From: Xestospongia muta
Lineage: Eukaryota > Porifera > Demospongiae > Haplosclerida > Petrosiidae
Assembly: GCA_963693285.1 (NCBI GenBank)
Contig: OY848925.1
Span: 6,426,932-6,490,931 of the forward strand
Length of the DNA stretch: 64,000 nucleotides
Direction of reading: 5' to 3'
Part shown: positions 11,845-62,871 of the stretch, piece by piece
Numbering within the stretch: the first letter of the stretch is position 1
Layout: each line of letters begins with the position of its first letter
Made by a program: the position numbers and the translations under genes
Notes under the pieces: generated by a model
What the model was told of the DNA's origin: nothing
Databases searched by the model: none
The model's input: the letters and a program-made list of their open reading frames with translations, nothing else

Positions 11845-14800
11845 TTAACGATCAAGGAGTACATTATTATTAACAACCAAATACGTCAAACTATTATTAT
11901 TAACAACAACATTTTGTAATTGTTGTATACCAAATTTACTAATATTAGGACAGTGAGTGAGAGATAGTAATTGTAGTGTGTCAGTGTTTGTAATTAGAGT
12001 AGATAGATGTGGTATGTCTTTATCAGTAATGTTATTGTCATTCCACAAGCATAATCTCTTGATTATTTTATTACCAACTACAGCAGTTGTTAATAAGTGG
12101 TAAGTATCTGGTACAAGAGGTGAGGAGTAAAGAGTTAGTTCCTCCATTGTTTGGTTATAAGGTAGTACTTGAGATAGTTTACTGACACAGTTACTATCAA
12201 AAGGAGTGTTCCTTATATGAAGTACCTCCACTTGACATCCATTAATATCAGTTAATATTGTAAGTAAACTTTGAGGAGATAATGACTTGAGTGTAATACT
12301 CCATGTTTTGTGTTGTAGTCTCTTTAATTGATGTATCACTTCTTTACATTCTGCCACAGTAGATGAAGTAAGTATAACACCATAACTGTACCACTGAACA
12401 CTTCCAGTGTTTCCTATAATAAAACATAGTTACTATATAATATTTTACACACACAACAATAGCTATACACACGCTCTAACATGCTCAACTACGATTGTCA
12501 AGGCCTAACGAAGAAGACGACGCCATTACTGATGTTAAGTTACTATAGCAATGATGTACGGAGATGAACGGATTCTACAAAACAGTCTTAAATTTACTGA
12601 GTGTTATACTAATAATTTACTGTATTAGATGATGTGAGCTAAGATGGGAACGTCAAGATCTACTGAGACAGGCACACAGGGTACTGAACTGTTATACCAA
12701 TAATTTACTGTATTAGTTTGGAAGACTAAATTTCTGTTGATATATTATCACTCAATGATCTGAGCCAGGATGAGGTGCAAAGTTACTGAGACCAGCACTG
12801 TGGTACCTAGTCTTGTCCCCAGACCTACTCACAAGCTTAAAGTACTACTTAAATTTGCGAGTAGGTCAATTATTTTGTTTAGTGTAGTGTCAATTCAATA
12901 GTACCAGTTCTGAGTATTTTAATAGAATACTCCCAAAGACTATAAAGTACTAATACTTAAAGAAAGGCTCATTTTGTTACACACAGACATTGGGGGCTCC
13001 ATAAATATAGCTATTGAAAAAGGGGAGTGGCTAGCTACATGAGACTGCCCACCTATTTGATTGGGTTTCCAGACTACACAGTATTTAATGTACTATGTTC
13101 TGTTCATGTTGAGAAAGACTGTGGTTTAGTGGAATTCCAATAATAACCCATGTCATCAACCTGACTTGGGTGTGGCATTGTAATTGTAACACTACATGTA
13201 GAAATGTATGGATATGTGACTGTCAGATAGCCATCAGTATTAGATGATCTGAACTAAGATGAGGGATGTCACTATCAATTGAGACAGACACACAAGGTAC
13301 TGAACTGTAAGTGAGAATGACTCGATTATATCATTAGTCAAAATGATTCACAATTACGAAGCAATACTCAAGCATAAATCATCACGATGTCTGGTAATAG
13401 AGTTTTGTTTGACTTGTCTTTTGTGTGTTGACATTTCTCTTTTACTTTACAAATGTCATGATGTAATAAAACATTATATTTAGTATTGTGATGTGATATC
13501 ATAATGTAAGTTATGTCATTTATAATGTACTTCAATATTTTGAAACAATAATTATTATTTGAAACTATCCTATCAACATTGAAGCTGGAACATGTGTGTA
13601 ATAATAGTGACATCATTTCTCTATGTCAGCTAATGAACACCAGTTAACTCACAGATGTCATTACAATATTTTCATATCAGCTCAAGTTTACTATTCTTCT
13701 AGTAGTTAGTCTTCTCTCCATTTTTTTTGTTTTTCTTATATTTTCATAATACATGTATATATATAGCTGAAAATATTGATGAGGGATTAATTTGACCATG
13801 TTGGTGATTTTTTAAATTCAACAACTTTTGATACCACACTATTTTAATATAATACATTGTAAGCTTTAAATTTTATTCTCTCCAATATTTCCACTATATT
13901 CAGTACAGTACATGTACTATACATTCATGTCAGTACATGATAATAATATTATTAACTATAAACCATGTACTGGTACTTTCTTTATATCAGTGAATTTATG
14001 CTTAGCTTGTGTCTTCTGGAACTATATAACACAACATAAGTCTTCAAATTGTACACTCAATTCCTCTATCCCGTGGACATCTTTATAATGTCAGTGGTAG
14101 TCCTAGGTACTGATGTCAAGAGTAACTATTCCTGTATTATTTGATAATGTGTTTGTTATTGACTTCTTGATCTCTAGTGATCATGTGACTTATTGTTATT
14201 TTACTTGTTGTATCAATTAATAGTAGTTCATATACAATTATATAGTTGAGGTATAGGAATCTCCTTCGTTTGTATTTTATGAATTGACTTTTAATAATTA
14301 TATTAACCCAATCATACAATGTAGTATTGAATTTAAAGTCCTAGTTACCACATTATATTCAAGCTTTGAAAATATCTTGAAGTAAACAATAACTTGACTA
14401 CATTAATTGGTACATGTGTAGGTACTATTATAGCAGAGATCTTCATAGAGATCCACTATAGATTACTGAGAAATACTTGATAGTTTAATGTTGAAATTTT
14501 TTATTATTACTGAGCCATCAATGATGAATTCATTACTCGTTCATACTCAACATTGACTGACAACAGGTGTGGTGATGAAAGCAACTAATGAAATAGACTT
14601 GTGTCTTCATGTAATAAAGGTATGTGAAATTGCATGTTGTAGGAGTGTGCTACAAGCCAGTACATACTGTACCATATATACATTGTAGTTTGATCAAATG
14701 TTTTAATATTACTAAGTTTATAATGGCAGCTTACTTGGTAATTCTTCATCATCTGATGATTCCTGTTGGTCACTATGGGTATCTTTCTCCTCGTCTGTAC

Positions 14801-17800
14801 TTTTTGATGTTAACTGAGTGATAATTTTATCTTTCTCTGTCAATTGAAGAGTTAGTGAACTAATCATCTCCTGTAATTTTGTAATCTCTTGTTGTCTGTC
14901 AGTAGCTACACAGTACACAATATAAGATATTGTATATTGTCAGTAGTTATATAATACCTTCTCTTTCTTGGACAGTAGATGTGAGGTCCTCTAGTGTTTT
15001 CACCAGCTCATATGCTTCTGTATCTTAAATATGAAGTGATAAAGAATGTGCAGGTGTAGATAAAGTTATATAAAGAACATATGTACCTATACCTTCTTGT
15101 TTGCTATCAAGTGGTTCCTCAAGTTTTTGACTTAAAAGTGGATGACTAGTTTTAAGGAGATCTCTTACTTCTAATATACGAGACCTCAGATCTACAATAG
15201 ATAAAGTAAAGAGCTATACATGTTGTTAATATACCTTTTATGTTCTCTGTTAAACGAACATTTCTTTCCTCCTTCTCTCTTAATTGTAAAGTAAGACACG
15301 TTATTATCTCTTGTAATGATTGTAGCTCCTTCTGTAATTCTGTAAAATATAAAGCACATGTACAACACATGTATATTATAAATATTAGACATAATTATAT
15401 ATAATAACAGGAGCACATAATGAGAAAAGACAATCAACGGAAGGAGCATGAAATTCCATGCGATTTATCAAATCTGACGTATAGAGCTCTTAGGAGTTCT
15501 GTTACTATATTAAGATCAATAACTTATTAATTGTGGTTATATATGAGACCTGAATGAAGACTCTTTGCACTCTGTCATGTCATTAGTTTTCTTTGTCTTG
15601 AGAAAGTGTTACTACATATCACAATCTATACAAGGAATTACTTTAGACTAGATCTCTCTCTACCTAGTATTACTTGGGAACTGTACTTATCATTTAATTA
15701 ATGATGTGGAAGTTTCATGTTCTTTATTCATTACATGTTCCTGTTAATAATATCTGCTAAGTTCTCACCTTTCTGTGTAGACTTTAACTGAGTAACCTCT
15801 AATGACATTGTCTTCTTCAATTTTGCTTCAACAATATAATTATAATGTTAATTGAATTTTGTAGACCAATTATAGTTTTGTAGATACATCCTATAACATT
15901 TTATATTTTACTTACCTTTCATCTTCTCCATCAACTGACTCATTCCACTTTCTTCTCTCTCCATTACTTCTACATTTAGTGATTTTATTTCCATTTGTAA
16001 CCCCTCAATCTCTTCTTGTTTCTCTACTAATACTTTATTAGTAGCTATAGAACATAACCATATATGGTATGTACTACTAACAGTACTATAGCTCACCTTC
16101 TTTATGTCTGGTTAACTCCTCTATCTCTAAGGTCTTTGCCTTATTCATTTTCTCTAATAGTTTCAGCTTCTCTGTTTACATTAGGTACATAGTTATATCT
16201 CAATTAATGTACATGTACCTGATAAAGTGTCAGTTGATGGTTGATCTTGTGGTCCTTCTCTCTCCATACTGTGTGCTAGTACTAATAAAATATACCCACA
16301 TAATAATACAGTAGTGTGATTATTATTAGCTATTAATGAAAGGTATTTAATCATACAGAGTTTAGAATATAATATGATGACTTGATGGTAAACTATTAGC
16401 TAGCTATGTATGTAATTGATGACACAATGTAGTATAGGTCAGAATATATACATATAAAATAACTAACTTTGTTTTGTCTTTTCTCTCTCTAAAAGTTCAT
16501 TAAGAACATCCTCTTTTTCTTGTAGCAATTTAACAAGTAGAGATACTTCTGGTTTCTCAGAATATGATCTAATATGGTCATAAAGTGAGAATGTATTCAA
16601 GAAAACACTTACAACACAGCCACTAGATCAACATTAACTTTGTAAGATTGACTTGACTTGTCCCACTCAAGGTAATTGAACAGCTTGGATTCAGGAGAGC
16701 TTTTCTCCAATACTACTGTGGGAAGACTAAATACTAATTCAATACAGCCTTCATTGTAATCATGGAAGTGTAAGATAGCACTACTTTGAAAACCCAGTAG
16801 TCTGGCAAGGTTACGTTGAATAGCTTTGACTTCTCCTCCAGTTATGACGAGATCTCCAGACACTTTAAGAAGAAGTTCAGTACGTTGAGATTGTGTGTGT
16901 GGAGGAGCACATGGTATCTCAAAAATGGAGCGTTTTAAATAAGGAATGAGATGTTTATCTTCATATTCCTTTAAACGCATCTTTTCAGATTCATCTCCCA
17001 AATTTTCAACTATTACTTGAAATGAATCATAGTTGAACCATGTACAGTGTTTGGTCAACTCAGAAAACACATCTGAAATGTCGTCGTCTCTTCTAAAATC
17101 AAACACACTTGGTTCTCGCTGATCCTTTTCTGAAGTGCAATAGCTACGTACAATTGACTGAATATCTCTTGGGTTAATTTTACGTTCTCTAAATGATTTT
17201 ATAAGATAAGCAACAAAGGCAGTATAAGCTTTACGGACATCGCGATTGTCATCCATTAGCTTGTTTCTCACTGCCAAATCTTCCCAGTTTGGATAACTAA
17301 CTTTAGCTTTCTCTGGAGCAAGGTGAAATGTCACTGTTTGTGGCAATGATGTTATTCTCTTTGAAAGATATTTTAATATAGATTCAGCTACAAAACGATC
17401 TTCCATTTTTAAAAAAGACTTCACCAATTCTTTGTAAGTAGCTGCACTCCCGTTCTTTCTTTTCCATGCCCACAATAACTCGTTCTTCTTTTCTACATCA
17501 CTTTTATCACTTTGGGAAATACTATGAACTCTTTCTGTTGATAAATTGAGACAACGACCAGCTGTTATATAGTCATCATTCATATGTTGTGAGACCTCAA
17601 TGAAAACTCCATCATCACACTCTTTATCTACTACTTCATATGATAGACCATACTGACTGAGTAGACTTAAAAGATCTAATTTAATTAAAGAGACATTACA
17701 ATATACAAAAGACAATATAATTGATACTTAATATATTTTTATTTCAATTAGCATATTAACTAGTTATATGAGAGCTACCATTATCACTAATGGGTGGGGT

Positions 17801-18939
17801 TAATACCTCATTTTGCCTCACCCATTGAGTAAACTTTGTATTATCTCTTGTTTGTAACTACCTTCATACAATGATACAATTATAGCCATCATATAAATAG
17901 CCCTGCCTACCAGCACTGTATGAATTTTCATACAGTAACTCTATTCCAATTATGGTATATACAAACACTGTCCATATTAAGAATGAACACTAATTCACTG
18001 TTATAACTCAGACTAGAAATGAACTTGATAGAAATGGTTTGTACAATTTAAACACCTTGGAAGTCCACAAATTTTATCAGAAAACTAGGCCACTAGTTAT
18101 TTAGGAAAGTCACAAACCAGAAATCCAATGTAAAGTCTTTGTATTCCATGACCTGATGTCATGTATAATTTGGACATTATTAACAAACGCTTACACAGGT
18201 GCCATCCAGTTTCAACAATAAAAATTCAGAAATTGTCAACATAGTAAAATTAAGATAGTTTAAGAGACAGTGACAAAGAACCACAAAATGTATGACTGAT
18301 AAAATAGTTAGCAGCTATGTTGCCACACCCACCTTAGGTTGATGATATTGTCATTATTGAATTCCACTAAATACAGTCATTCTCAACACAAACAGATATA
18401 AGTTATAGTACATAGTCCATTATAGTACCAGTGTTAATTGTGACATGATAATTGAGGTTCAACTAGTTCATAAGATATTATATAGCTTCCTAATTCCTGT
18501 TTTCTCATGCAGCATGATCCCTAATTAAATGTCATACTAAATTAATCCTATTTATTCTAACAATAATTATACTGGAAATATCTCATCATGTTGTCACTGA
18601 CATACCATGATACTGGGGAGCTAATGTTGACAGCTCTGCTGCAAGATTCCTACCAACAATGGCTGCTGGTCCACCAAGATCCTCGAGAATTCTAACAAGA
18701 CAATGACAGTTTGTCTGTATTTCCTCCACAGTCTTCCCCAACTTCAATCCAGTTTTCAATTCGTTAGCTATATCAGCAAAATTCTCGCTTCTCATAACAG
18801 ACTCAGATATCAGACGAGCGGCAAATGCTTCCTCCGTAAATTTTGTCAGGCATCCTTGTAGAGCTGAACTGAGGTTGGCATATTGAGAATTAAAGACATC
18901 AATAACGGCTTTCTTGTAGCTTTCGAGTGAGTCATCCAT
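11845..18939 (-). CDS. Death-domain / coiled-coil / LRR receptor-like protein, copy 1
   Basis: About 12 exons, roughly 950 residues. Exon 1 (18606-18939, ATG 18939) encodes a ~111-residue helical, possibly death-fold, segment. It splices in phase (CAT G|AT CTT) to 16613-17675: a Death domain at about residues 130-217 (EVSQHMNDDYITAGRCLNLS, LLWAWKRKNGSAATYKELV) and a ~250-residue conserved region without named family. Nine or so small exons (14735-16568) form coiled coil such as LQSLQEIITCLTLQLREKEE. The terminal exon 11845-12413 joins in phase (ELP|R|NTGSVQWYSYG) and carries five or six short LRR strands ending VLLDR*. Likely a cytosolic sensor/adaptor; no signal peptide or NACHT domain seen. 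Copy-1 oddities: six codons missing in WEDLA|VRNKL, and one coiled-coil exon without its acceptor (near 15830). Confidence 0.7.
12414..14734 (-). other. Long intron between coiled-coil and LRR exons, copy 1
   Basis: No convincing exon. It includes diverged repeats of a ~70-bp motif (GATGTGAGCTAAGATGGGAA..., GATCTGAGCCAGGATGAGG..., GATCTGAACTAAGATGAGG...) at about 12630, 12755 and 13238. It also has a stretch (about 12815-13235) without counterpart in copies 2-5. Equivalent introns: copy 2 28721-30423 and copy 3 45361-47070. Confidence 0.5.
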
Positions 18940-19551: not shown

Positions 19552-20852
19552 CACTGGTACTGTGACTTCCAAGTCTGAAATAAAAGAGTTAAATATTATT
19601 GAGAGTCTAAAGGGTTAAATACCTATATGTCATAGCTTCAATAAGTACTGGTCTTCCTTCCTCGACACAAACCTGTTTAGCGTGTTTTGTGACATTATAC
19701 ATGGCCAATACATCATTGCCGTCAACTCTAATGGCTTCCATACCATACCCTATCCCACGATTAACAATCCCATCACCAGCGTATTGATCTTCTACGGGGG
19801 TGGATATAGCGTAGCCATTATTGCAACAGAGGAAGATGACAGGACAATTTAAGGTGGCAGCAAAATTCATTGCAGCACGACAGTCTCCTTCCTGAGCTGC
19901 TCCATCTCCGAAATAGACAATGACACAGTTTTTGGAACCAGCCATTTTCATACCATATGCATAGCCTGGTGCTAGAATGGAGTACGTGAACATGAGAAGG
20001 AGTACAATGTACCAAGAAAATAGTTAACCTTGTGGTATTTGAGTAGCCAACGGAGATGAGATAAAATGAAAGTTATGTTCTTTACTTCCATAATGTACTG
20101 GCATTTGACGTCCACAACCTTTATCTAAATTGTTTGAGAAACAATGATTCATCATATCATCAAGTGTAAATCCTTGCCACATGAGGACACCTGTTTCACG
20201 ATATTGGCCATATACCACGTCATCCAAATCCAGAGCAGCTGCTGTTCCAAAATGTGTACTCTCCTCTCCATAATTCATCATATAAAATGATATGAGACCC
20301 TGTTGTCATGGAAACAGAATGGATGTGGTTAATTGTGTGTACTCAATATGTACCATTCTCTGTGCTCTATAAAGATATTGATCCATTAATTGCAGTGTCA
20401 GCATTTTGGAGTACATACGTAACAGAAGATCTTTGTCAAGCTAGAAAGAAAAACATCTGCTTATATGATAATGTATCTATTAACAATAATCATAAACAAT
20501 CTAGTACTAGTCTCCTATTGAAGCATATGACATAAATATATTGTAATATTTGAATACATTTGGGTCTTGGGAGGAGTCAAGTACTATTCCTTCATTATTC
20601 AGTATACGATATATCGGTTGTAGATGAAGACTCTTATTTGGTGAACTGGCTTGGATTAGATCAGTTGTATAAGGAGGACCTCGTGGACTAACCTCCTCTG
20701 ATAGTACTGGTATTGTATAATGGAGTTGCTATAGGTAAAAATTCGCTCTATTTAGGTATAGAGAGGTTCTTTACCTTCTTGCAACATAATCTGTTGAACC
20801 ATAACTGATAACTGTTACCTGCTCTTGTTAGAAACAAAAGCCTGCTAGCCAT
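19514..20852 (-). pseudogene. BCKDHA: BCKDHA copy 2 (C-terminally truncated, catalytic-site Arg changed)
   Basis: Same six-exon structure as copy 1, with no nonsense codon before the terminal TGA at 19514. The leader is one residue shorter (a 3-bp loss). In the ThDP-binding stretch the family's CRNNGYAIS reads CCNNGYAIS. This Arg contacts the cofactor phosphate in human E1-alpha, where its loss causes maple syrup urine disease (from memory of the family). With the missing C-terminus, activity is very unlikely. Confidence 0.75.
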
Positions 20853-28151: not shown

Positions 28152-31100
28152 TTAACGTGTAAGGAGTAAATTATTATTAACAAGCAATTTCTTGAAACTA
28201 TTATTATTAACAACAACATTTTGTAATTGTTGTTCACCAAATTTAGTAATATTAGGACAGTCAGTGAGAAATAGTGATTGTAGTGTGTTAGTGTTTGTAA
28301 TTAGAGTAGATAGATGTGGTATGTCTTTATCAGTAATGTTATTGTCATCCCACAAGTATAATCTCTTGATTATTTTATTATCAGCTACAGCAGTTGTTAA
28401 TAAGTGGTAAGTATCTTGTACGAGAGGTGAGGAGTAAAGATGTAGGTACTCCATTGTTTGGTTATAAGGTAGTACTTGAGATAGTTTACTGACACAGTTA
28501 CTATCAAAATGAGTGTTCTCTATAACAAGTCCCCTCACTTGACATCCATTAATATCAGTTAATATTGTAAGTAAACTTTGAGGAGATAATGACTTGAGTT
28601 CAATAATCCATGTTTTGTGTTGTCGTCTCTTTAATTGACGTATCACTTCTTTACATTCTGCCACAGTAGATGAAGTAAGTGTAACACTATATCTGTACCA
28701 CTCAACACTTCCAGTGTCTCCTATAATAAAACATAGTTACTATATAATATTTTACACACACAACAATAGCTATACACACACTCTAACATGCTCAACTACG
28801 ATTGTCAAGGCCTAACGAAGAAGACGACGCCATTACTGATGTTAGGTTACTATAGCAATGATGTACGGAGATGAACGGATTCTACAAACGGTCTTAAATT
28901 TACTGAGTGTTATACTAATAATTTACTGTATTAGATGATGTGAGCTAAGATGGGAACGTCAATATCTACTACTGAGTTAGGCACACAAAGTACTGAACTG
29001 TCAGTGAGGATGACTCGATTATATCACTAGTCAAGATGATTCACAATTAAGAAGCAACACTCAAGCATAAATCATCATGATGTCTGGTAATAGAGTTTTG
29101 TTTGACTTGTCTTTTGTGTGTTAACATTTCTCTTTTACTTTACAAATGTCATGATTTAATAAAACATTATATTTAGTATTGTGATGTGATATCATAATGT
29201 AAGTTATGTCATTTATAACGTACTTCAATATTTTGAAACAATAATTATTATTTGAAACTATCCTATCAACATTGAAGCTGGAACATGTGTGTAATAATAG
29301 TGACATCATTTCTCTATGTCAGCTAATGAACACCAGTTAATTCACAGATGTCATTACAGTATTTTCATATCAGCTCAAGTTTACTATTCTTCTAGTAATT
29401 AGTCTTCTCTTCATTTTTTTGTTTTTCTTATATTTTCATAATACATGTATACATATAGCTGAAAATATTGATGAGGGATTAATTTGACCATGTTGGTGAT
29501 TTTTGAAATTCAACAACTTTTGATACCACACTATTTTAATATAATACATTGGAAGCCTTAAAATTTATTCTCTCCAATATTTCCACTATATTCAGTACAG
29601 TACATGTACTATACATTCATGTCAGTACATGATAATAATATTATTAACTATAAACCATGTACTGGTACTTTCTTTATATCAGTGAATTTATGCTTAGCTT
29701 GTGTCTTCTGGAACTATATAACACAACATAGTCTTCAAATTGTACACTCAATTCCTCTATCCTGTGGACATCTTTATAATGTCAGTGGTAGTCCTAGGTA
29801 CTGATGACAAGAGTAACTATTCCTGGATTATTTGATAATGTGTTTGTTGTTGACTTCTTGATCTCTAGTGATCATGTGACTTATTGTTATTTTACTTGTT
29901 GTATCAATTAATAGTAGGTCATATACAATTATATAGTTGAGGTATGGGAGTCTTCTTCATTTGTATTTTATGAATTGACTTTTAATAATTATATTAACCA
30001 ATCATACAATGTAGTATTGAGTTTAAAGTCCTAGTTTCCACATTATACTCAAGCTTTGAAAGTATCTTGAAGTAAACAATAACTTGACTACATTAATTGG
30101 TACATGTGTAGGTACTATTATAGCAGAGATCATCATAGAGATCCACTATAGATTACTAAGAAATACTTGATAGTTGAATGTTGAATTTTTTATTATTACT
30201 GAGCCATCAATGATGAATTCATTACCCGTTCATACTCAACATTGACTGACAACAGGTGTGGTGATGAAAGTAACTAATGAAATAGACTTGTGTCTTCATG
30301 TAATAAAGGTATGTGAAATTGCATGTTGTAGAAGTGTGTTACAAGCCAGTACATACTGTACCATATATACATTGTAGTTTGATCAAATGTTTTAATATTA
30401 CTAAATTTATAATGGCAGCTTACTTGGTAATTTTTCATCATCTGATGATTCCTGTTGGTCACTATGGGTATCTTCCTCCTCATCTGTACCTTTTGATGTT
30501 AACTGAGTGATAATTTCATCTTTTTCTGTCAATTGAAGAGTTAGTGAACTAATCATCTCCTGTAATTTTATAATCTCTTGTTGTCTGTCAGTAGCTACAC
30601 AGTATACAATTTTAAGATATTGTATATTGTCAGTAGTTATATAATACCTTCTCTTTCTTGGACAGTAGATGTGAGGTCCTCTAGTGTTTTCACTAGCTCA
30701 TATGCTTCTGTATCTGAAATATGAAGTGATAAAGAATGTGCAAGTGTAGATAAAGTTATATAAAGAACATATGTACCTATACCTTCTTGTTTGCTATCAA
30801 GTGGTTCCTCAAGTTTTTGACTTAAAAGTGGATGACTAGTTTTAAGGAGATCTCTTACTTCTAATATCCGAGACCTCAGATCTACAATAGATAAAGTAAA
30901 GAGCTATACATGTTGTTAATATACCTTTTATGTTCTCTGTTAAATGAACATTTCTTTCCTCCTTCTCTCTTAATTGTAAAGTAAGAGACGTTATTATCTC
31001 TTGTAATGATTGTAGCTCCTTTTGTAATTCTATAGAATATAAAGCACATGTACAATACATGTATATTATAAATATTAGACATAATTATATATAATAACAG

Positions 31101-34100
31101 GAGCACATAATGAGAAAAGACAAGAAATGGAAGGACCATGAAATCCCATGCAGTTTATCAAATCTGACGTATAGAGCTCTTGGGAGTACTGTTACTATAT
31201 TAAGATCAATAACTTATTAATTGTGGTTATATATGAGACCTGAATAAAGACTCTTTGCACTCTGTCATGTCATTAGTTTTCTTTGTCTTGAGAAAGTTTT
31301 ACTACATATCACAATCTATACAAGGAATTACTTTAGACTAGAGCTCTCTCTACCTAGTATTACTTGGGAACTGTACTTATCATTTAATTAATGATGTGGA
31401 AGTTTCATGTTCTTTATTCATTACATGTTCCTGTTAATAATATCTGCTAAGTTCTCACCTTTCTGTGTAGACTTTAACTGAGTAACTTCTAATGACATTG
31501 TCTTCTTCAATTTTGCTTCAACAATTCTTGGATCTACAATAATTTATATTAATTATAATTATAATTTTAATTGAATTTTGTAGAGCCAATTATAGTTTTG
31601 TAGATACATCCTATAACATTTTATATTTTACTTACCTTTCATCTTCTCCATCAACTGACTGATTCCACTTTCTTCTCTCTCCATTACTTCTACATTTAGT
31701 GATTTTATTTCCATTTGTAATGCCTCAATCTCTTCTTGTTTCTCTACTAACACTTTATTAGTAGCTATAGAACATAACCATATATGGTATGTACTACTAA
31801 CAGTACTATAGCTCACCTTCTTTATGTCTGGTTAACTCCTCTATCTCTAAGGTCTTTGCCTTATTCATTTTCTCTAATAGTTTCAGCTTCTCTGTTTACA
31901 TTAGGTACATAGTTATATCTCAATTAATGTACATGTACCTGATAAACTGTCAGTTGATGGTTGATCTTGTGGTCCTTCTCTCTCCATACTGTGTACTAGT
32001 ATTAATAAAATATACCCACATAATAATACAGTACTGATTATCATTAGCTATCAGTGAAAGGTATTTAATCATACAGAGTTTAGAATATAATATGATGACT
32101 TGATGGTAAACTAATAGCTAGCTATGTATGTAATTGATGACACAATGTAGCATAGGTCAGAATATATACATATAAAATAACTAACTTTGTTTTGTCTTTT
32201 CTCTCTCTAAAAGTTCATTAAGAGCATCCTCTTTTTCTTGTAGTAACTTAACAAGTAGAGATACTTCTGGTTTCTCAGAATATGATCTAATATGGTCATA
32301 AAGTGAGAATATATTCAAGATAACACTTACAACACATCCACTAGATCAACATTAACTTTGTAAGATTGACTTGACTTGTCCCACTCAATGTAATTGAAGA
32401 GCTTGGATTCAGGAGAGCTTTTCTCCAATACTACTGTGGGAAGACTAAATAGTAATTCAATACAGCCTTCATTGTAATCATTGAAGTGTAAGATAGCACT
32501 ACTTTGAAAACCCAGTAGTCTGGCAAGGTTACGTTGAATAGCTTTGACTTCTCCTCCAGTTATGATGAGATCTGCAGACACTTTAAGAAGTTTGGTACGT
32601 TGAGATTGTGTGTGTGGAAGAGCACATGGTATCTCAAAAATGGAGCGTTTTAAATAAGGAATGAGATGGTTATCTTCATATTCCTTCAAACGCATTCTTT
32701 CAGATTCATCTCCCAAATTTTCAACTATTACTTGAAATGAATCATAGTTGAACCATGTACAGTGTTTAATCAACTCGAAAAACACATCAGAAATGTCGTC
32801 GTCTCTTCTAAAATCAAACACCATTGATTCTCGCTGATTCTTTTCTGAAGTGCAATAGCTACGTACAATTGACTGAATATCTCTTGGATGAACTTTACGT
32901 TCTCTAAATGATTTTATGAGATAAGCAACAAAGGCAGTATAAGCTTTACGGACATCACGATTGTCATCCATTAGCTGGTTTCTCACTGCCTCCTGCTCAC
33001 TCTCTGTCAATTCTTCCCAGTTTGGATAACGAACTTTAGCTTTCTCTGGAGCAAGGTGAAATGTAACTGTTTGTGTCAATGATGTCATTCTCTTTGAAAG
33101 ATATTTTAATATAGATTCAGCTACAAAATGATCTTCCATTTTCAAAAAAGATTTCACCAATTCTTTGTAAGTAGCTGCACTCCCATTCTTTCTTTTCCAT
33201 GCCCACAATAACTCATTCTTCTTTTCTACATCAATTTTATCACTTTGGGAAATACTATGAACTCTTTCTGTTGATAAATTGAGACAACGACCAGCTGTTA
33301 TATAGTCATCGTTCATATGTTGTGAGACCTCAATGAAAACTCCATCATCACACTCTTTATCTACTACTTCATATGATAGACCATACTGACTGAGTAGACT
33401 TGAAAGATCTAATGTAATTAAAGAGACATTACAATATACAAAAGACAATATAATTGATACTTAATATATTCTTATTTAAATTAATATATTAACTAGTTAT
33501 ATGAGAGCTACCATTATACTCTAATGGGTGGGGTCAATATCTCATTATAAAAATTAATATTTTACTTTAACTAGTTGCTTTGTAATAACATACCAACAAA
33601 TTATATAGTGAGTAATTTATATTAATTATGGATTCCATAGTAACCACTTATGTAAACTATAAATTAGTTGTTAAAATAACTGATTAATTTTTACAATGAG
33701 CAAACTTTGTATTATCTCTTGTTTGTAACTACCTTCATACAATGATACAATTATAGCTATCATATAAATAGCCCCGCCTACCAGCACTGTATGAATTTAA
33801 TACAGTAACTGTATTCCAATTATGGTATATACAAACATTGTTAGAGTCTTTGATATGAATACTATTAACAGCTGGAATACTTCACTATTAACAGGAAATG
33901 TAATGTAATATAAAGCAGTAGAAATGGAATAATCACAAGGTCACACAAGAACTACATTACAAGTATAGTTCATCATAGTATACTCTGTTCATATTAAGAT
34001 TGAACACTAATTCATTGTTATAACTCAGACTAGAAATGAACTTGTTAGAAATTGTTTACACAATTCAAACACCTTGGAACTCCACAAATTGTATCAGAAA

Positions 34101-34945
34101 ACTAGGCCACTAGTTATTTAGAAAAGTCACAAACCAGAAATCCAATGTAAAGTCTTTGTATTCCATGACATGATGTTATGCATAATTTGGACATTATTAA
34201 CAAACGCTTACAAAGGTTAGCCAAAAAAAATTTCAGAAACTGTCAAAAATAGTAAAATTAAGATAGTTTAAGAGACAGTGACAAAGAACCACAAAATGTA
34301 TGACTGATAAAAAATTTAGCAGCTACGTCGCCACACCCACCTAAGGTTGATGATATTGTCATTATTGAATCCACTAAATGCAGTCATTCTCAACACAAAT
34401 AGATATAAGTTATAGTACATAGTCCATTATAGTACCAGTGTTAATTGTGACATGATAATTGAGGTTCAACTAGTTCATAACATATTATATAGCTTCCTAA
34501 TTCCTGTTATCTCATGCAGCATGATCCCTAATTAAATGTCACACTTAATTAATCCTATTTATTCTAACAATATTATACTGGAAATGTCTCATCATGTTGT
34601 CACTGACATACCATGATACTGGGGAGCTAATGTTGACAGCTCTTCTGCAAGATTCCTACCAACAATGGTTGCTGGTCCACCAAGATCCTCGAGAATTCTA
34701 ACAACACGATGACAGTTTGTCTGTATTTCCTCCACAGTCTTTCCCAACTTCAATCCAGTTTTCAATTCGTTAGCTATATCAGCAAAATTCTCGCTTCTCA
34801 TAACAGACTCAGATATCAGACTAGCGGCAAATTCTTCCTCTGTAAATTTTGTCATACATCCTTGTAGAGCTGAACTGAGGTTGGCATATTGAGAATTAAA
34901 GACATCAATAACGGCTTTCTTGTAGCTTTCGAGTGAGTCATCCAT
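28152..34945 (-). CDS. Death-domain / coiled-coil / LRR receptor-like protein, copy 2
   Basis: Exon 1 is 34612-34945 (ATG 34945). The Death exon runs from the acceptor near 33410 to about 32331 and is fully open, with WEELTESEQEAVRN retained. The coiled-coil exons lie at 30424-32290, including the 25-codon exon DPRIVEAKLKK whose acceptor is missing in copy 1. LRR exon 28152-28720 has variable strands W-I-I-E-L, GLVIENT, YLHLYSS, RLYLWDD, SLFLTDC and KLLVNNN. No disabling change seen. Confidence 0.7.
33544..33698. mobile_element. MITE-like inverted-repeat insertion in receptor intron 1, copy 2
   Basis: About 155 bp bounded by ATAAAAATTAATATTTTACTT at the left and, inverted, TTGTAAAAATTAATCAGTTA at the right. 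Present at the same place in copy 3 and absent from copy 1. No coding capacity; superfamily not determined. Confidence 0.5.
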
Positions 34946-44788: not shown

Positions 44789-47700
44789 TTAACGTCGATC
44801 AAGGAGTACATTATTATTAACAATCAAATACTTCAAACTATTATTATTAACAACAACATTTTGTAATTGTTGTATACCAAATTTAGTAATATTAGGACAG
44901 TGAGTGAGAGATAGATGTTGTAGTGTGTTAGTGTTTGTAATTAGAGTAGATAGATGTGGTATGTCTTTATCAGTAATGTTATTGTCATCCCACAACCATA
45001 ATCTCTTGATTATTTTATTACCAACTACAGCAGTTGTTAATAAGTGGTAAGTATCTGGTACGAGAGGTGAGGAGATAAGACGTAGGTACTCCATTGTTTG
45101 GTTATAAGGTAGTACTTGAGATAGTTGACTGACACAGTCACTATCAAAATGAGTGTTCCATATATAAAGTCCCTCCACTTGACATCCATTAATATCAGTT
45201 AATATTGTAAGTAAACTTTGAGGAGATAATGACTTGAGTACAATCCACCATGTTGTGTGTTGTTGTCTCTTTAATTGACGTATCACTTCTTTACATTCTG
45301 CCACAGTAGATGAAGTAAGTGTAACTCTATTACTAGTCCACTCAACACTTCCAGTGTCTCCTATAATAAAACATAGTTACTATATAATATTTTACACACA
45401 CAACAATAGCTATACACACACTCTAACATGCTCAACTACGATTGTCAAGGCCTAACGAAGAAGACGACGCCATTACTGATGTTAGGTTACTATGGCAATG
45501 ATTTACGGAGATGAACGGATTCTACAAAAAGGTCTTAAATTTACTGAGTGTTATACTAATAATTTACTGTATTAGATGATGTGAGCTAAGATGGGAACGT
45601 CAATACCTACTGAGACAGAAACACAAGGTACTGAACTGTCAGCGAGGATGACTCGATTATATCACTAGTCAAGATGATTCACAATTAAGAAGCAACACTC
45701 AAGCATAAATCATCATGATGTCTGGTAATAGAGTTTTGTTTAACTTGTCTTTTGTGTGATGACATTTCTCTTTTACATTACAAACGTCATGATATAATAA
45801 AACATTATATTTAGTATTGTGATGTGATATCATAATGTAAGTTATGTCGTTTATAATGTACTTCAATATTTTGAAACAATAATTATTATTTGAAACTATC
45901 CTATCAACATTGAAGCTGGAACATGTGTGTAATAATAGTGACATCATTTCTCTATGTCAGCTAATGAACACCAGTTAACTCACAGATGTCATTACAGTAT
46001 TTTCATATAAGCTCAAGTTTACTATTCTTCTAGTAATTAGTCTTCTCTCATTTTTTGTTTTTCTTATATTTTCATAATACATAGTACATGTATACATATA
46101 GCTGAAAATATTGATGAGGGATTAATTTGACCATGTTGGTGATTTTTGAAATTCAACAACTTTTGATACCACACTATTTTAATATAATACATTGGAAGCT
46201 TTAAAATTTATTCTCTCCAATATTTCCACTATATTCAGTACAGTACATGTACTACACATTCATGTCAGTACATGATAATAATATTATTAACTATAAATCA
46301 TGTAGTGGTACTTTCTTTATATCAGTGAATTTATGCTTGGCTTGTGTCTTCTGGAACTATATAACACAACATAGTCTTCAAATTGTACACTCAATTCCTC
46401 TATCCTGTGGACATCTTTATAATGTCAGTGGTAGTCCTAGGTACTGATGTCAAGAGTAACTATTCCTGTATTATTTGATAATGTGTTTGTTGTTGACTTC
46501 TTGATCTCTAGTGATCATGTGACTTATTGTTATTTTACTTGTTGTGTCAATTAATAGTAGGTCATATACAATTATATAGTTGAGGTATAGGAATCTCCTT
46601 CATTTGTATTTTATGAATTGACTTTTAATAATTATATTAACCCAATCATACAAAGTAGTATTGAATTTAAAGTCCTAGTTTCCACATTATATTCAAGCTT
46701 TGAAAGTATCTTGAAGTAAACAATAAATTGACTACATTAATTGGTACATGTGTAGGTACTATTATAGCAGAGATCATCATAGAGATCCACTATAGATTAC
46801 TGAGAAACACTTGATAGTTGAATGTTGAAATTTTTTATTATTACTGAGCCATCAATGATGAATTCATTACCCATTCATACTCAACATAGACTGACAACAG
46901 GTGTGGTGATGAAAGCAACTAATGAAATAGACTTGTGTCTTCATGTAATAAAGGTATGTGAAATTGCATGTTGTAGGAGTGTGCTACAAGCCAGTACATA
47001 CTGTACCATATATATATTGTAGTTTAATCACATGTTTTAAATATTACTAAAGTTATAATGGCAGCTTACTTGGTAATTCTTCATCATCTGATGATTCCTG
47101 TTGGTCACTATGGGTATCTTCCTCCTCGTCTGTATCTTTTGATGTTAACTGAGTGATAATTTTATCTTTCTCTGTCAATTGAAGAGTTAGTGAACTAATC
47201 ATCTCCTGTAATTTCGTAATCTCTTGTTGTCTGTCAGTAACTACACAGTACACAATATAAGATATTGTATATTTTGAGTAGTTATATAATACCTTCTCTT
47301 TCTTGGACAGTAGATGTGAGGTCCTCTAGTGTTTTCACCAGCTCATATGCTTCTGTATCTGAAATATGAAGTGATAAAGAATGTGCAGGTGTAGATAAAG
47401 TTATATAAAGAACATAGGTACCTATACCTTCTTGTTTGCTATCAAGTGGTTCCTCAAGTTTTTGACTTAAAAGTGGATGACTAGTTTTAAGGAGATCTCT
47501 TACTTCTAATATCCGAGACCTCAGATCTACAATAGATAAAGTAAAGAGCTATACATGTTGTTAATATACCTTTTATGTTCTCTGTTAAATGAACATTTCT
47601 TTCCTCCTTCTCTCTTAATTGTAAAGTAAGAGACGTTATTATCTCTTGTAATGATTGTAGCTCCTTCTGTAATTCTATAGAATATAAAGCACACGTACAA

Positions 47701-50700
47701 CACATGTATATTATAAATATTAGACATAATTATATATAATAACAGGAGCACATAATGAGAAAAGACAAAAAATGGAAGGACCATGAAATCCCATGCAGTT
47801 TATCAAATCTGACGTATAGAGCTCTTGGGAGTACTGTTACTATATTAAGATCAATAACTTATTAATTGTGGTTATATATGAGACCTGAATGAAGACTCTT
47901 TGCACTCTATCATGTCATTAGTTTTCTTTGTCTTGAGAAAGTTTTACTACATATCACAATCTATACAAGGAATTATTTTAGACTAGAGCTCTCTCTACCT
48001 AGTATTACTTGGGAACTGTACTTATCATTTAATTAATGATGTGGAAGTTTTATGTTCTTTATTCATTACATGTTCCTGTTAATAATATCTGCTAAGTTCT
48101 CACCTTTCTGTGTAGACTTTAACTGAGTAACTTCTAATGACATTGTCTTCTTCAATTTTGCTTCAAGAGTTCTTGGATCTACAATAATTTATATTAATTA
48201 TAATTATAATGTTAATTGAATTTTGTAGAGCAATTGTTGTTTTGTAGATACATCCTATAACATTTTATATTTTACTTACCTTTCATCTTCTCCATCAACT
48301 GACTGATTCCACTTTCTTCTCTCTCCATTACTTCTACATTAAGTGATTTTATTTCAATTTTTAATGCCTCAATCTCTTCTTGTTTCTCTACTAACACTTT
48401 ATTAGTAGCTATAGAACATAACCATATATGGTATGGACTACTATCAGTACTATAGCTCACCTTCTTTATGTCTGGTTAACTCCTCTATCTCTAAGGTCTT
48501 TGCCTTATTCATTTTCTCTAATAGTTTCAGCTTCTCTGTTTACATTAGGTACATAGTTATATTTCAATTAATGTACATGTACCTGATAAAGTGTCAGTTG
48601 ATGATTGATCTTGTGGTCCTTCTCTCTCCATACTGTGTACTAGTATTAATAAAATATACCCACATAATAATACAGTGATGATTATCATTAGCTATCAGTG
48701 AAAAGTATTTAATCATACAGAGTTTAGAATATAATATGATGACTCGATGGTAAACTAATAGCTAGCTATGTATGTAATTGATGACACAATGTAGTATAGG
48801 TCAGAATATATACATATAAAATAACTAACTTTGCTTTGTCTTTTCTCTCTCTAAAAGTTCATTAAGAACATCCTCTTTTTCTTGTAGCAATTTAACAAGT
48901 AGAGATACTTCTGGTTTCTCAGAATATGATCTAATATGGTCATAAAGTGAGAATATATTCAAGATAACACTTACAACACATCCACTAGATCAACATTAAC
49001 TTTGTAAGATTGACTTGACTTGTCACAATCAATGTAATTGAACAGCTTGGATTTAGGAGAGCTTTTCTCCAATACTACTGTGGGAAGACTAAATACTAAT
49101 TCAATACAACCGTCATTGTAATCATTGAACTGTAAGATAGCACCACTTTGAAAACCAAGTAGTTTGGCAAGGTTACGTTGAACAGCTTTTACTTCTAATC
49201 CAGTTATGACGAGATCTATAGACACTTTAAGAAGAAGTTCAGTACGTTGAGATTGAGTGTGTGGAGGAGCACATGGTATCTCAAAAATGGAGCGTTTTAA
49301 ATAAGGAATGAGATGTTTATCTTCATATTCATTTAAACGCATCTTTTCAGATTCATCTCCCAAATTTTCAACTATTACTTGAAGTAAATCATAGTTGAAC
49401 CATGTACAGTGTTTGGTCAACTCAGAAAACACATCTGAAATGTCGTCGTCTCTTCTAAAATCAAACACCATTGGTTCTCGCTGATCCTTTTCTGGAATGC
49501 AATAGCAACGCACAATTGACTGAATATCTCTTGGCTTAACTTTACGTTCTCTAAATGATTTTATGAGATAAGCAACAAAGGCAGTATAAGCTTTACGGAC
49601 ATCACGATTGTCATCCATTAGCTGGTTTCTCACTGCCTCTTTCTCTTTCTCTGCCAAATCTTCCCAGTTTGGATAACGAACTTTAGCTTTCTCTGGAGCA
49701 AGGTGAAATGTTACTGTTTGTGTCAATGATGTCATTCTCTTTGAAAGATATTTTAATATAGATTCAGCTACAAAACGATCTTCCATTTTTAAAAAAGACT
49801 TCACCAATTCTTTGTAAGTAGCTGCACTCCCGTTCTTTCTTTTCCATGCCCACAATAACTCATTATTCTTATCAACATCACTTTTATCACTTTGGGAAAT
49901 ACTATGAAGACTTTTTGTAGATAAATTGAGACAACAACCAGCTGTTATATAGTCATCGTTCATATGTTGTGAGACCTCAATGAAAACTCCATCATCACAC
50001 TCTTTATCCACTATTTCATATGATAGACCATACTGACTGAGTAGACTTGAAAGATCTAATGTAATTAAAGAGACATTACAATATACAAAACACAATATAA
50101 TTGATACTTAATATATTCTTATTTTAATTAGCATATTTACTAGTTATATGAGAGCTACCATTATCACTAATGGGTGGGGCAATATCTTATTATAAAAATT
50201 AATATTTTACTTTAACTAGCTGCTTTGTAATAACATACACACAAATTATATAGTGAGTAATTTATATTAATTATGGATTCCATAGTAACCGCTTATGTAA
50301 ACTATAAACTAGTTGTTAAAATAACTGATTAATTTTTACAATGAGCAAACTTCCTATTATCTCTTGTTTGTAACTACCTTCATACAATGATACAATTATA
50401 GCATCATATAAATAGCCCTGCCTACCAGCACTGTATGAATTTAATACACTAACTCTATTCCAATTTTGGTATATACAAACATTGTACAAACTTTGATATG
50501 AATACTATTAACAGCTGGAATACTTCACTATTAACAAGAGATGTAATGTAACTAGATATGGAAGAATCACAAGGTCACACAAGAACTACATTACAAGTAT
50601 AGTTCATCATAGTATACTCTGTCCATATTAATAATGAACACTAATTCACTGTTATAACTCAGACTAGAAATGAACTTGATAGAAATGGTTTACACAATTC

Positions 50701-51588
50701 AAACACCTTGGAAGTCCACAAATTTATTGAAAAACTAGGCCACTAGTTACTTAGGAAAGTCACAAACCAGAAATCCTATGTAAAGTCTTTGTATTCCATG
50801 ACCTGATGTCATGTATAATTTGGACATTATTAACAAACGCTTGCACAGGCGCCCTCCAGCTTCAGCAAAAAAATTTAGAAATTGTCAAAAATAGTAAAAT
50901 TAAGATAGTTTATGAGACAGTGACAAACAACCACAAAATGTATGACTGATAAAAAAGTTAGCAGCTACGTTGCCACACCCACCTTAGGTTGATGATATTG
51001 TCATTATTGAATTCTACTAAATGCAGTCATTCTCAACACAAACAGATATAAGTTATAGTACATAGTCCATTATAGTACCAGTGTTAATTGTGACATGATA
51101 ATTGAGGTTCAACTAGTTCATAAGATATTATATAGCTTCCTAATTCCTGTTTTCTCATGCAGCATGATCCCTAATTAAATGTCACACTTAATTAATCCTA
51201 TTTATTCTAACAATATTATATTGGAAATGTCTCATCATATTGTCACTGACATACCATGGTACTGGGCAGCTAATGTTGACAGCTCTGCTGCAAGATTCCT
51301 ACCAACAATGGTTGCTGGTCCACCAAGATCCTCGAGAATTCTAACAACACGATGACAGTTTGTCTGTATTTCCTCCACAGTCTTCCCCAATTTCAATCCA
51401 GTTTTCAATTCGTTAGCTATGTCAGCAAAATTCTCGCTTCTCATAACAGACTCAGATATCAGACTAGCGGCAAATGCTTCCTCTGTAAATTTTGTCATAC
51501 ATCCTTGTAGAGCTGAACTGAGGTTGGCATATTGAGAATTAAAGACATCGATAACGGCTTTCTTGTAGCTTTCGAGTGAGTCATCCAT
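44789..51588 (-). CDS. Death-domain / coiled-coil / LRR receptor-like protein, copy 3
   Basis: Exon 1 is 51255-51588. The Death exon runs from the acceptor near 50057 to about 48975, open, with WEDLAEKEKEAVRN. Coiled-coil exons lie at about 47071-48930. LRR exon 44789-45360 has variable strands W-W-I-V-L, GLYIWNT, YLRLISS, RLWLWDD, HLSLTHC and YLIVNNN, and ends LLDRR*. No disabling change seen. Confidence 0.7.
50189..50342. mobile_element. MITE-like inverted-repeat insertion in receptor intron 1, copy 3
   Basis: Same element and site as in copy 2, bounded by TATAAAAATTAATATTTTAC and the inverted AATTTTTACAAT end. Confidence 0.5.
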
Positions 51589-52209: not shown

Positions 52210-53513
52210 CACTAGTACTGTGACTTCCAACTCTGAAATAAAAGAGTTAAATATTATTGAGAGTCTAAAGGGTTAAATACCTATATGTCATAGCTTCAAT
52301 AAGTACTGGTCTTCCTTCCTCGACACAAACCTGTTTAGCGTGTTTTGTGACATTATACATGGTCAATACTTCATTGCCGTCAACTCGAATGGCTTCCATA
52401 CCATATCCTATACCACGATTAACAATCCCATCACCAGCGTATTGATCTTTTATGGGGATGGATATAGCGTAGCCATTATTGCGACAGAGGAAGATGACAG
52501 GACAATTTAAGGTGGCAGCAAATTTCATTGCAGCATGGCAGTCTCCTTCCTGAGCTGCTCCATCTCCGAAATAGACAATGACACAGTTTTTGGAACCAGC
52601 CATTTTCATACCATATGCATAGCCTGGTGCTAGAATGGAGTACGTGAACATGAGAAGGAGTACAATGTATCAAGGCAATAGTTAACCTTGTGGTATTTGA
52701 GTAGCCAACGGAGATGAGATAAAATGAAAGTTATGTTCTTTACTTCCATAATGTACTGGCATTTGACGTCCACGACCTTTATCCAAATTGTTTGAGAAAC
52801 ATTGATTCATCATATCATCAAGTGTAAATCCTCGCCACATGAGGACACCTGTTTCACGATATTGGGCATATACCACGTCTTCCAAATCCAAAGCAGCTGC
52901 TGTTCCAAAATGTGTACCCTCCTCTCCATAATTCATCATATAAAATGATATGAGACCCTGTTGTCATGGAAACAGAATGGATGTGGTTAATTGTGTGTAC
53001 TCAATATGTACCATTCTCTGTGCTCTATAAAGATATTGATCCATTAATTGCAGTGTCAGCATTTTGGAGTACATACGTAACAGAAGATCTTTGTCAAGCT
53101 AGAAAGAAAAACATCTGCTTATATGATAATGTATCTATTAACAATAATCATAAACAATCTAGTACTAGTCTCCTATTGAAGCATATGACATAAATATATT
53201 GTAATATTTGAATACATTTGGGTCTTGGGAGGAGTCAAGTACTATTCCTTCATTATTCAGTATACGATATATCGGTCGTAGATGAAGAGTCTTATTTGGT
53301 GAACTAGCTTGCATTAGATCAGTTGTATAAGGAGGACCTCGTGGACTAACCTCCTCTGATAGTACTGGTATTGTATAATGGAGTTGCTATAGGGAAAAAT
53401 GCGCTCTATTTAGGTATAGAGAGGTTCTTTACCTTCTTGCAACATAATCTGTTGAGCCATAACTGATAACTGTTACCTGCTCTTCTTGTTAGAAACAAAA
53501 ACCTGCCAGCCAT
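52172..53513 (-). pseudogene. BCKDHA: BCKDHA copy 4 (C-terminally truncated)
   Basis: Six exons without a premature stop. Conserved residues CRNNGYAIS are kept, but the next stretch reads [10 protein letters not shown] where the others have [11 protein letters not shown]-terminal region missing as in all copies. Confidence 0.75.
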
Positions 53514-57031: not shown

Positions 57032-57108
57032 GCTCACTATAAGATTAATACAAACCTTACATTATTTATAGATGTTGTCCTACAAGCTGATGCTTTAACG
57101 TAACTAGA

Positions 57109-58367: not shown

Positions 58368-58373
<6 letters not shown>

Positions 58374-58398
<25 letters not shown>

Positions 58399-58400
58399 AG
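58374..58400. repeat. CA microsatellite, expanded in copy 4
   Basis: Uninterrupted CA run in the spacer; shorter in copies 1-3 (for example 9589-9602). Confidence 0.8.
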
Positions 58401-59893: not shown

Positions 59894-60462
59894 TTAACGT
59901 CTAAGGAGTACATTATCATTAACAATCAAATACTTCAAACTATTATTATTAACAACAACATTTTGTAATTGTTGTTTACCAAATTTAGTAATATTAGGAC
60001 AGTCATAGAAAGATAGTACTTGTAGTGTGTTAGTGTTTGTAATTAGAGTAGATAGATGTGGTATGTCTTTATCAGTAAAGTTATTGTCATTCACCAAGTA
60101 TAATCTCTTGATTATTTTATTACCAACTACAGCAGTTGTTAATAAGTGGTAAGTATCTGGTACGAGAGGTGAGGAGGAAAGACGTAGGACCTCCATTGTT
60201 TGGTTATAAGGTAGTACTTGAGATAGTTTACTGACACAGTTAATATCAAAAGGAGTGTTCTCTATATAAAGTCTCCACACTTGACATCCATTAATATCAG
60301 TTAATATTGTAAGTAAACTTTGAGGAGATAATGACTTGAGTACAATACTCCATGTTTTGTGTTGTCGTCTCTTTAATTGACGTATCACTTCTTTACATTC
60401 TGCCACAGTAGATGAAGTAAGTCTAACTCTATCACTGTACCACTTAACACTTCCAGTGTCTC
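59894..60462 (-). pseudogene. Orphan receptor LRR exon, copy 4
   Basis: Complete LRR exon, open, with its own set of variable residues (W-S-I-V-L, RLYIENT, VLRLSSS, RLYLVND, VLSFYDC, YLIVNDN; ends LLRR*). The intron upstream is cut at 60880 and again at 61093, so no coiled-coil or Death exon belongs to it. It could be spliced to a distal exon only across copy 5. Confidence 0.65.
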
Positions 60463-61561: not shown

Positions 61562-61708
61562 TTACATGTAGCAAACTTAGTATGATGTAAAAGTAAAAAT
61601 AACACTGTTTTTATTACTAATGCACTACAGCTGCATAAACAATAGTACACTAGTAATAAAAACAGTGTTATGTCTACTTTCACATCATATTAAGTTTATT
61701 ACATGTAA
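61562..61708. repeat. Long imperfect inverted repeat (hairpin), copy 5
   Basis: Same hairpin as 27412-27558, with a few substitutions in the right arm and loop. Confidence 0.75.
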
Positions 61709-62302: not shown

Positions 62303-62871
62303 TTAACGTGTAAGGAGTAAATTATTATTAACAAGCAATTTCTTGAAACTATTATTATTAACAACAACATTTTGTAATTGTTGTTCACCAAATTTAGTAA
62401 TATTAGGACAGTCAGTGAGAAATAGTGATTGTAGTGTGTTAGTGTTTGTAATTAGAGTAGATAGATGTGGTATGTCTTTATCAGTAATGTTATTGTCATC
62501 CCACAAGTATAATCTCTTGATTATTTTATTATCAGCTACAGCAGTTGTTAATAAGTGGTAAGTATCTGGTACGAGAGGTGAGGAGTAAAGATGTAGGTAC
62601 TCCATTGTTTGGTTATAAGGTAGTACTTGAGATAGTTTACTGACACAGTTACTATCAAAATGAGTGTTCTCTATAACAAGTCCCCTCACTTGACATCCAT
62701 TAATATCAGTTAATATTGTAAGTAAACTTTGAGGAGATAATGACTTGAGTTCAATAATCCATGTTTTGTGTTGTCGTCTCTTTAATTGACGTATCACTTC
62801 TTTACATTCTGCCACAGTAGATGAAGTAAGTGTAACACTATATCTGTACCACTCAACACTTCCAGTGTCTC
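62303..62871 (-). CDS. Receptor LRR exon, copy 5 (gene continues beyond window)
   Basis: The protein is identical to the copy-2 LRR exon except Pro for Gln in SSPLV(P/Q)DT. The upstream intron follows copy 2 to the end of the window, so the coiled-coil and Death exons should lie to the right of 64000. Confidence 0.65.

Follow-up and report, generated by a model that had tools for sequence, protein, structure and literature searches.

The window analysed here is a 64,000-nucleotide stretch of the sponge Xestospongia muta (C9:6426932-6490931), from a genome searched over 158.0 Mb in 28 contigs. Tandem units of approximately 15-18 kb are repeated along it, each carrying a receptor gene that ends in a hypervariable leucine-rich repeat (LRR) exon. 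Within a unit, the minus strand encodes an exon 1 of 112 amino acids, a long Death exon, short coiled-coil-like exons (read by eye in gene 1) and the terminal LRR exon with its TAA stop. The receptor genes are separated by E1_dh exons (recognised by Pfam, one copy scanned) and by exons that we take to be MTIF2-like, for which Pfam returned no match. The terminal LRR exons are the following:

11845..12413, minus strand: terminal LRR exon c1, a hypervariable cassette exon (codon comparison; AlphaFold2 model with a predicted local distance difference test score, pLDDT, of 95.5)
28152..28720, minus strand: terminal LRR exon c2 (codon comparison)
44789..45360, minus strand: terminal LRR exon c3, with one extra codon near the stop (codon comparison)
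59894..60462, minus strand: terminal LRR exon c4, 2.4 kb downstream of c5 (codon comparison)
62303..62871, minus strand: terminal LRR exon c5, one codon different from c2 (codon comparison)

An earlier note on this DNA had proposed c1 to c4; all four were found where it placed them, on the minus strand, with the acceptor TTATTATAG|G and a TAA end, and c5 (62303-62871) is a fifth copy beyond them. Every amino-acid alternative that it had listed at the strand codons was present in our codon comparison. Its count of a single synonymous change between c1 and c3 held for one clear case (codon 105), while another lies beside the one-codon indel. Among the matches listed, none to the Death exon lay between c5 and c4, and c4 is possibly a second, perhaps alternative, terminal LRR exon of the last gene in the window, shared with c5. 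At L022 (C3:963800-972800), one Death exon is followed by two LRR cassettes 3.7 kb apart, an arrangement resembling c5/c4, and these paired cassettes are possible alternative terminal exons as well.

Replacement and silent changes were counted with the NG86 method in the six pairs formed by the four distinct LRR exon copies (c5 being a near-duplicate of c2). Replacement differences ranged from 34.8 to 42.5 per pair and silent differences from 0 to 4.2, giving a total ratio of replacement to silent divergence (pN/pS) of 5.10. In two disjoint pairs (82 replacement and 4 silent differences), the departure from neutrality had a p value of 5e-6. The corresponding totals were 0.51 for the Death exons (four copies, one of them from outside the window), 0.41 for exon 1 (four copies), 0.60 for E1_dh (three copies) and 0.70 for the MTIF2-like exons (three copies, with 3 replacement and 0 silent changes in one of the three pairs). 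Silent divergence within the window was lower in the LRR exon (0.018) than in the Death exons of the three window genes (0.056-0.086), indicating that the LRR part has been homogenised or more recently copied, and replacement divergence was higher (0.090, compared with 0.051 in the Death exons). Together with the wider comparisons below, the window copies strongly support the diversifying selection that the earlier note had proposed for the strand face of a near-invariant frame; of the two outcomes that it had named as refuting, a dN/dS near 1 across the exon and variable sites off the concave face, neither was encountered.

We then extended the comparison to the rest of the genome. A search with the window LRR exon returned at least 151 matches (468 first-look candidates, 150 scored), and one with a relative from contig C4 returned at least 145 (550 candidates, 145 scored). 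By eye, 22 places were common to both listings, leaving approximately 270 listed places, some of them fragments, and all these counts are lower bounds. From the 151 matches, 64 window-type exons were read and 63 distinct ones kept, located on contigs C9, C3 and C12; they include all 27 C9 exons of the window type among the matches listed. Pfam scans gave no match for the window LRR exon; its relatives carry the precomputed label PF27087, which was not returned by the scans run here.

To define the hypervariable (HV) codons, we relied on 18 outside public proteins, selected from 120 by their framework words, from which 30 HV columns were chosen, 19 of the 30 forming a strand subset. These proteins are 72.8-78.6% identical to the nearest exon read, and P0116, the one searched against the genome, had a best match of 78%. 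The column entropies of the outside and genome sets were in good, though not perfect, agreement (Pearson 0.82, Spearman 0.56, 161 columns), with 21 columns variable in both sets, 9 only in the genome exons and 9 only in the outside proteins. Some HV column sets (those of the 45-exon comparisons, the C4 family, and the head-type and run-length tests) were chosen on the same data.

Across all pairs of the 63 exons, the 19 strand columns differed at codon position 1 with a frequency of 0.535 and at position 2 with a frequency of 0.478. In the same columns, silent third-position transitions were found in 484 out of 18470 C/T comparisons (0.026) and 184 out of 8237 A/G comparisons (0.022). Transitions in the 100-base downstream flank (54 of the 63 exons) amounted to 0.0220 for C/T and 0.0148 for A/G, with 0.043 for all differences, and those in the upstream flank to 0.0203 and 0.0250, with 0.037 for all differences. 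Third-base changes between the C/T and A/G classes, which are mostly replacement changes, reached 0.20 in the strand columns. Since all-pair figures are non-independent, the count was repeated on 31 disjoint nearest pairs: positions 1 and 2 had changed in 480 out of 1176 cases and silent third-position transitions had occurred in 5 out of 459, a ratio of 37. Such a ratio within the same codons is extreme compared with those of the major histocompatibility complex (MHC) or plant resistance (R) genes. The 30 outside-chosen columns gave a pN/pS of 7.7 (p = 4e-43). Column 13, which yielded 253 silent C/T differences out of 576 with columns chosen on the same data, is not covered by the outside set. 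Recent duplicates, such as c2/c5, were unchanged at all 19 strand sites.

A second, larger LRR-exon family is located mostly on contig C4 (G000:C4, 6.3-10.4 Mb), its matches, at least 145, being spread over several contigs. For several exons of this family, a relative of the type C middle domain (described below) was noticed by eye at a distance of a few kb. A sample of 16 of its 145 exons showed the same pattern, with changes of 0.40 and 0.37 at HV positions (columns chosen on the same data) and silent third-position changes of 0.019 and 0.048 in HV codons, compared with 0.030 and 0.021 in the framework.

If the HV codons were old, or the target of a mutator, silent changes would be frequent in them; their rarity points to selection and not mutation. 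Low silent change together with frequent replacing third-base changes suggests that the filter acts on the protein. The pattern therefore fits strong diversifying selection on the LRR protein, a reading that the codon comparisons strongly support. Targeted mutagenesis of the HV codons, germline or somatic, by a system like a diversity-generating retroelement (DGR), a deaminase-like enzyme or another programmed mutator, would account for changes confined to particular codons, for apparently fixed third bases and for a very large replacement excess. However, a mutator would also raise silent third-base changes, which stayed at the nearest-pair level given above while replacing third-base changes reached 0.20. 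Adenine-specific mutagenesis fits no better, as the third A of columns 45, 68 and 124 was kept in 61, 61 and 62 of the 63 copies and many adenine-containing framework codons were invariant in 45 exons, so that, on this codon pattern, variation was not restricted to template adenines as in DGR products; no search aimed at a template repeat or reverse transcriptase was made. The framework silent rate was not clearly above that of the flanks either, and we consider targeted mutagenesis very improbable.

The AlphaFold2 model of the LRR exon, built with 83 sequences, is an LRR arc of six helix-strand repeats that follow an N-terminal strand pair or triplet, and a fold search retrieved NLRP (NLRP3) and ribonuclease-inhibitor LRRs as its nearest relatives. 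When entropy over the 63 exons was mapped on the model, as the earlier note had suggested, all 20 sites above 2 bits lay in strands or within two residues of them (17 in strands) and none in helices. Its claim that variation is limited to the concave strand face holds for these sites and, less strictly, at a lower threshold: 32 of the 39 sites above 1 bit are in a strand or at most two residues from one, while 4 are in helices. The residues alternating with HV sites are near-invariant, mostly leucine or isoleucine, and from such alternation in an LRR it follows that the HV side chains should point toward the concave side. Tyrosine accounts for 20% of the HV residues, which also include Arg, Val, Glu, Ser and Asp, and tryptophan for 5%, making the variable face aromatic-rich. 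The framework is near-identical at the silent level, while approximately 20 residues in or beside the strands are near saturation.

The remaining receptor features of the window are as follows:

16609..17727, minus strand: open frame of gene 1 in which a Death domain (Pfam 2.7e-10) is accompanied by another helical region, a possible death-fold, and by a TRADD-N-like part of beta-alpha-beta topology
32327..33460, minus strand: counterpart of the Death exon in gene 2 (Pfam Death 4e-9)
48971..50107, minus strand: counterpart of the Death exon in gene 3
18604..18939, minus strand: exon 1 of gene 1, 112 amino acids, with no Pfam match and no signal peptide visible on inspection by eye alone
34610..34945, minus strand: exon 1 of gene 2
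51253..51588, minus strand: exon 1 of gene 3
423..758, minus strand: exon 1 of a gene that has its Death exon at C9:6425208 and its LRR exon at C9:6421309, immediately ahead of the window start
14740..16560, minus strand: putative short exons of gene 1 with charged coiled-coil-like sequence, read by eye
10307..12808, minus strand: LRR cassette c1 with its flanks, approximately 92-99% identical to genes of other head types, with an insert at 10761-11501

Four module sets, or head types, were found upstream of the LRR exons, type A being that of the window. Types B and C both have a Death exon and a middle domain; the Death exon scores 2.9e-6 in Pfam in type B, which has one helical exon, and 1e-4, only just past the cut-off, in type C, which has more than one. 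Type D consists of a weakly Death-like exon (0.012, below the cut-off) with an A-type exon. By eye, the middle domains of types A, B and C appear to be related. The DNA of A and C genes aligns only in a 264-column piece (73.5% identity) and around the LRR (1192 columns at 94.7% and 455 columns at 98.7%), whereas A and B genes also have parts of the coiled-coil region in common (83-95%). Between A and D, identity is 80.2% in the Death exon region, 84.4% in the coiled-coil region, 93.7% in the cassette and 98.5% downstream. Across head types, the cassette blocks are 91.7 to 98.7% identical; the LRR exon and its flanks are, thus, a cassette common to several head types on three contigs. Carriage of this block by a transposon was also considered; its edges vary between comparisons, and no sharp element ends were seen.

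Within C9, the HV distance is independent of head type (A-A 0.597, A-B 0.582 and A-C 0.610; 16 A, 4 B and 7 C exons). It rises to 0.766 between C9 and C3/C12 exons, compared with 0.630 among the latter, which indicates that exchange across chromosomes is incomplete. In the pair L013/L035, 16 consecutive HV sites are equal, as are 17% of the remaining ones, which is what tract exchange would be expected to produce.

Homogenisation of this kind also lends itself to another explanation, in which ancient HV variants were kept by balancing selection while gene conversion homogenised the frame. Frame and flanks do look homogenised, since the compared C9 and C3 genes are 93.7% and 98.5% identical in the cassette but around 80% in the Death exon regions. 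Moreover, the states of codon 13 (TAC/GAG/ACT) form two groups without single-base links, and column 153 splits 46/17. Conversion, however, hardly separates the bases of one codon, so the low silent change inside HV codons counts against old diversity: in the 30 columns, silent transitions stay near the flank level even when the first two bases differ (384/15690 for C/T and 178/6787 for A/G). In addition, all codons belong to one single-base network in 15 of the 19 strand columns, as stepwise mutation would give. We therefore regard old balanced diversity as improbable.

A model of the long Death exon has strands at residues 281-288, 319-324, 328-335, 352-355 and 360-363 and a helix at 296-309. 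TRADD-N is described as an RRM-like sandwich with a tiny residue followed by Ser, sometimes Cys, in the beta2-beta3 turn (PMC8195603). Here, G326-C327 lie in a turn, G326 being kept in at least 90% of 68 sequences, and types B and C have NS, by eye, at a similar position. No TRADD-N chain appeared among the Death-exon fold-search matches listed, an absence that is not evidence, and Pfam gave no match. Of the 98 NACHT matches listed for the genome (102 of 155 candidates scored), none is located on C9, and Pfam gave no NACHT in the exons scanned. NACHT clusters are located inside or beside LRR cassette arrays elsewhere (G000:C3:1.31-1.38 Mb and C12:2.85-4.9 Mb), and a type C receptor with the cassette was observed inside the C12 cluster (L033, L085).

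Several neighbouring features complete the window:

2591-2959, 19607-20023, 36741-37157 and 52265-52669: E1_dh exons
5921-6298, 22955-23332 and 39624-40001: MTIF2-like exons

The E1_dh and MTIF2-like exons have been amplified along with the receptor units, and their total pN/pS values of 0.6-0.7 suggest weak constraint on these copies. The insert of approximately 740 bases inside the c1 cassette (window 10761-11501) is absent from the other compared genes that span the site. Its ends resemble the inverted repeats of a DNA transposon, which may be hAT-like.

Taken together, these results make it very probable that the locus belongs to a germline array of probably cytosolic receptors, whose LRR exons are diversified by selection while their frame is kept by exchange. 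Signalling would be the task of at least one Death-fold domain together with a TRADD-N-like domain and a coiled coil, and recognition that of the terminal six-repeat LRR exon. Gene conversion, unequal exchange and duplication would keep the frame uniform and move cassettes among heads, while strong diversifying selection would fix replacement changes at the binding face. Each LRR exon may bind its own fast-changing ligand, be it a pathogen or symbiont protein or a non-self marker, upon which the Death and TRADD-N parts would assemble a signalling or cell-death complex. An immune function is what we infer from this architecture and its evolution.

Some observations weigh against this scheme. 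The run-length test for exchange was weak, with a mean longest run of 3.21 compared with 2.80 +/- 0.13 in 60 permutations and 18 HV runs of eight or more compared with 16.8 permuted. In 1431 pairs drawn from 54 exons, flank divergence was almost no guide to HV difference (Spearman 0.09), and the 19 pairs with flanks less than 0.5% diverged still average an HV difference of 0.66. This decoupling implies that the neutral clock was reset by exchange and that an absolute rate is beyond reach. In the C4 sample, silent A/G change in HV codons (0.048) is about twice that of the framework (0.021). The TRADD-N-like assignment is based on topology and a two-residue motif. Finally, columns outside the 30 show a pN/pS of 0.96 in nearest pairs, pointing to a frame without clear purifying selection over that time. 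This last value is what relaxed constraint would give, with decaying copies whose LRR exon drifts without function. But the replacement divergence of the strand sites lies far above neutral, which already refutes drift for the HV columns; stops are few (6 of at most 150 window-type matches listed and 1 of 145 in the C4-relative search), and the hydrophobic strand residues between HV sites are near-invariant. Decay is, accordingly, extremely improbable.

Public proteins from other contigs bear on how the receptors under diversifying selection might be used. P0010 has the same frame, with a best match of 88% in the genome and a label common to proteins matching L015, L019, L031 and L064. Eight more (P0002, P0003, P0009, P0011, P0016, P0017, P0020 and P0030) have no exact match among the 63 exons read, the set with which they were compared, and only P0009 (95.9% to L011) is allele-like. 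This suggests that haplotypes or individuals carry different LRR repertoires. One explanation is allorecognition instead of pathogen recognition, with the repertoire as a label of the individual and the receptors as detectors of non-self tissue; the same frame with other HV strings in these nine proteins is in its favour. However, haplotype differences equally fit pathogen-driven selection, the contigs concerned may be of another species or individual, and the window gene, in which inspection by eye alone showed neither a transmembrane nor a secreted part, reads as intracellular. Allorecognition is, on this evidence, rather unlikely. A broader proposal, which we put forward only tentatively and think somewhat less probable than its negation, is a germline 'V-region' system of an early-branching animal, serving anticipatory immunity or allorecognition. 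It would consist of one hypervariable LRR cassette in scores of copies (well over two hundred with the sister family), with exchange among Death/TRADD-N heads, haplotype- or individual-specific repertoires and some genes that have a choice of two terminal LRR exons.

Several known systems show parallels. In lamprey variable lymphocyte receptors, which are extracellular and somatically assembled, diversity also falls on LRR concave strand residues in a fixed frame. The window receptors differ in that their exons are germline and their LRR fold is of an intracellular type, close to NLRP and ribonuclease-inhibitor chains.

The earlier note's suggestion of an undescribed family did not stand, because the combination of Death-like, TRADD-N and LRR domains has already been described from the sponge Amphimedon, where such proteins have expanded very greatly (Kaur et al. 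2021, PMC8195603). There, the NCOA6-clade TRADD-N expansion numbers 357 proteins in one sponge, often fast-evolving, with one to three Death-like domains, TRADD-N and a variable C-terminus, most commonly ankyrin repeats or SH3 followed by LRRs (PMC8195603). The window genes match this architecture in their Death-like, coiled-coil and LRR parts and in a putative TRADD-N-like one: their N-terminal Death-like part falls within the range of one to three domains, and the variable C-terminal domain is an LRR in the fold model, predicted to be spliced to the head. SH3 was covered in the window genes by Pfam scans, which left out the short exons. In its available parts, the Amphimedon account includes no hypervariable concave LRR face, synonymous-rate comparison or cross-head LRR cassette, and 'positive selection' and 'hypervariab' have 0 occurrences in its main text (PMC8195603).

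Zebrafish NLR-B30.2 genes also form clusters of hundreds, and their C-terminal recognition module is positively selected and gene-converted across groups with different N-terminal parts (PMC4852459). Those genes are NACHT-based, with B30.2 variable and the LRRs not particularly so, whereas in the window genes it is the LRR that varies (PMC4852459). In fungal HNWD and other repeat NLRs, a conserved repeat frame evolving in concert, with a hypervariable positively selected surface, is likewise joined to varied N-terminal effectors; however, WD, ANK and TPR repeats vary within a gene, while here a near-fixed-length LRR exon varies between genes (PMC4986451). Plant highly variable NLRs (hvNLRs) resemble the window receptors in their periodic LRR-surface entropy spikes and exposed aromatics at likely binding sites, but constitute near-allelic series between individuals, as opposed to the paralogues of a single genome studied here, whose silent divergence is low and in which neither NACHT nor NB-ARC was seen (PMC8226289). 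They are recognised by at least 10 positions over 1.5 bits (PMC8226289); the 63 exons have 20 positions above 2 bits, although they are paralogues, not alleles, and not NLRs. Brown algal LRR-ROCO genes have shuffled LRR exons with concave sites under diversifying selection, but these are ROCO GTPases with one 72-base exon per repeat, and here the whole LRR domain is one exchanged exon (PMC11378527). The architecture is, thus, known, while its hypervariable face, extreme selection pattern and cassette sharing were not found in the open-licence literature and are apparently unreported there.

Recognition cassette and signalling head are separate units here, as in zebrafish NLR-B30.2 genes and in the HNWD genes of fungi, which suggests convergent solutions. 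The positions that vary can be named beforehand, given the near-identity of frame and flanks, which makes questions of binding, allorecognition and germline versus somatic variation directly testable. The array is a concrete candidate for a broad and specific recognition repertoire in an early-branching animal without adaptive immunity.

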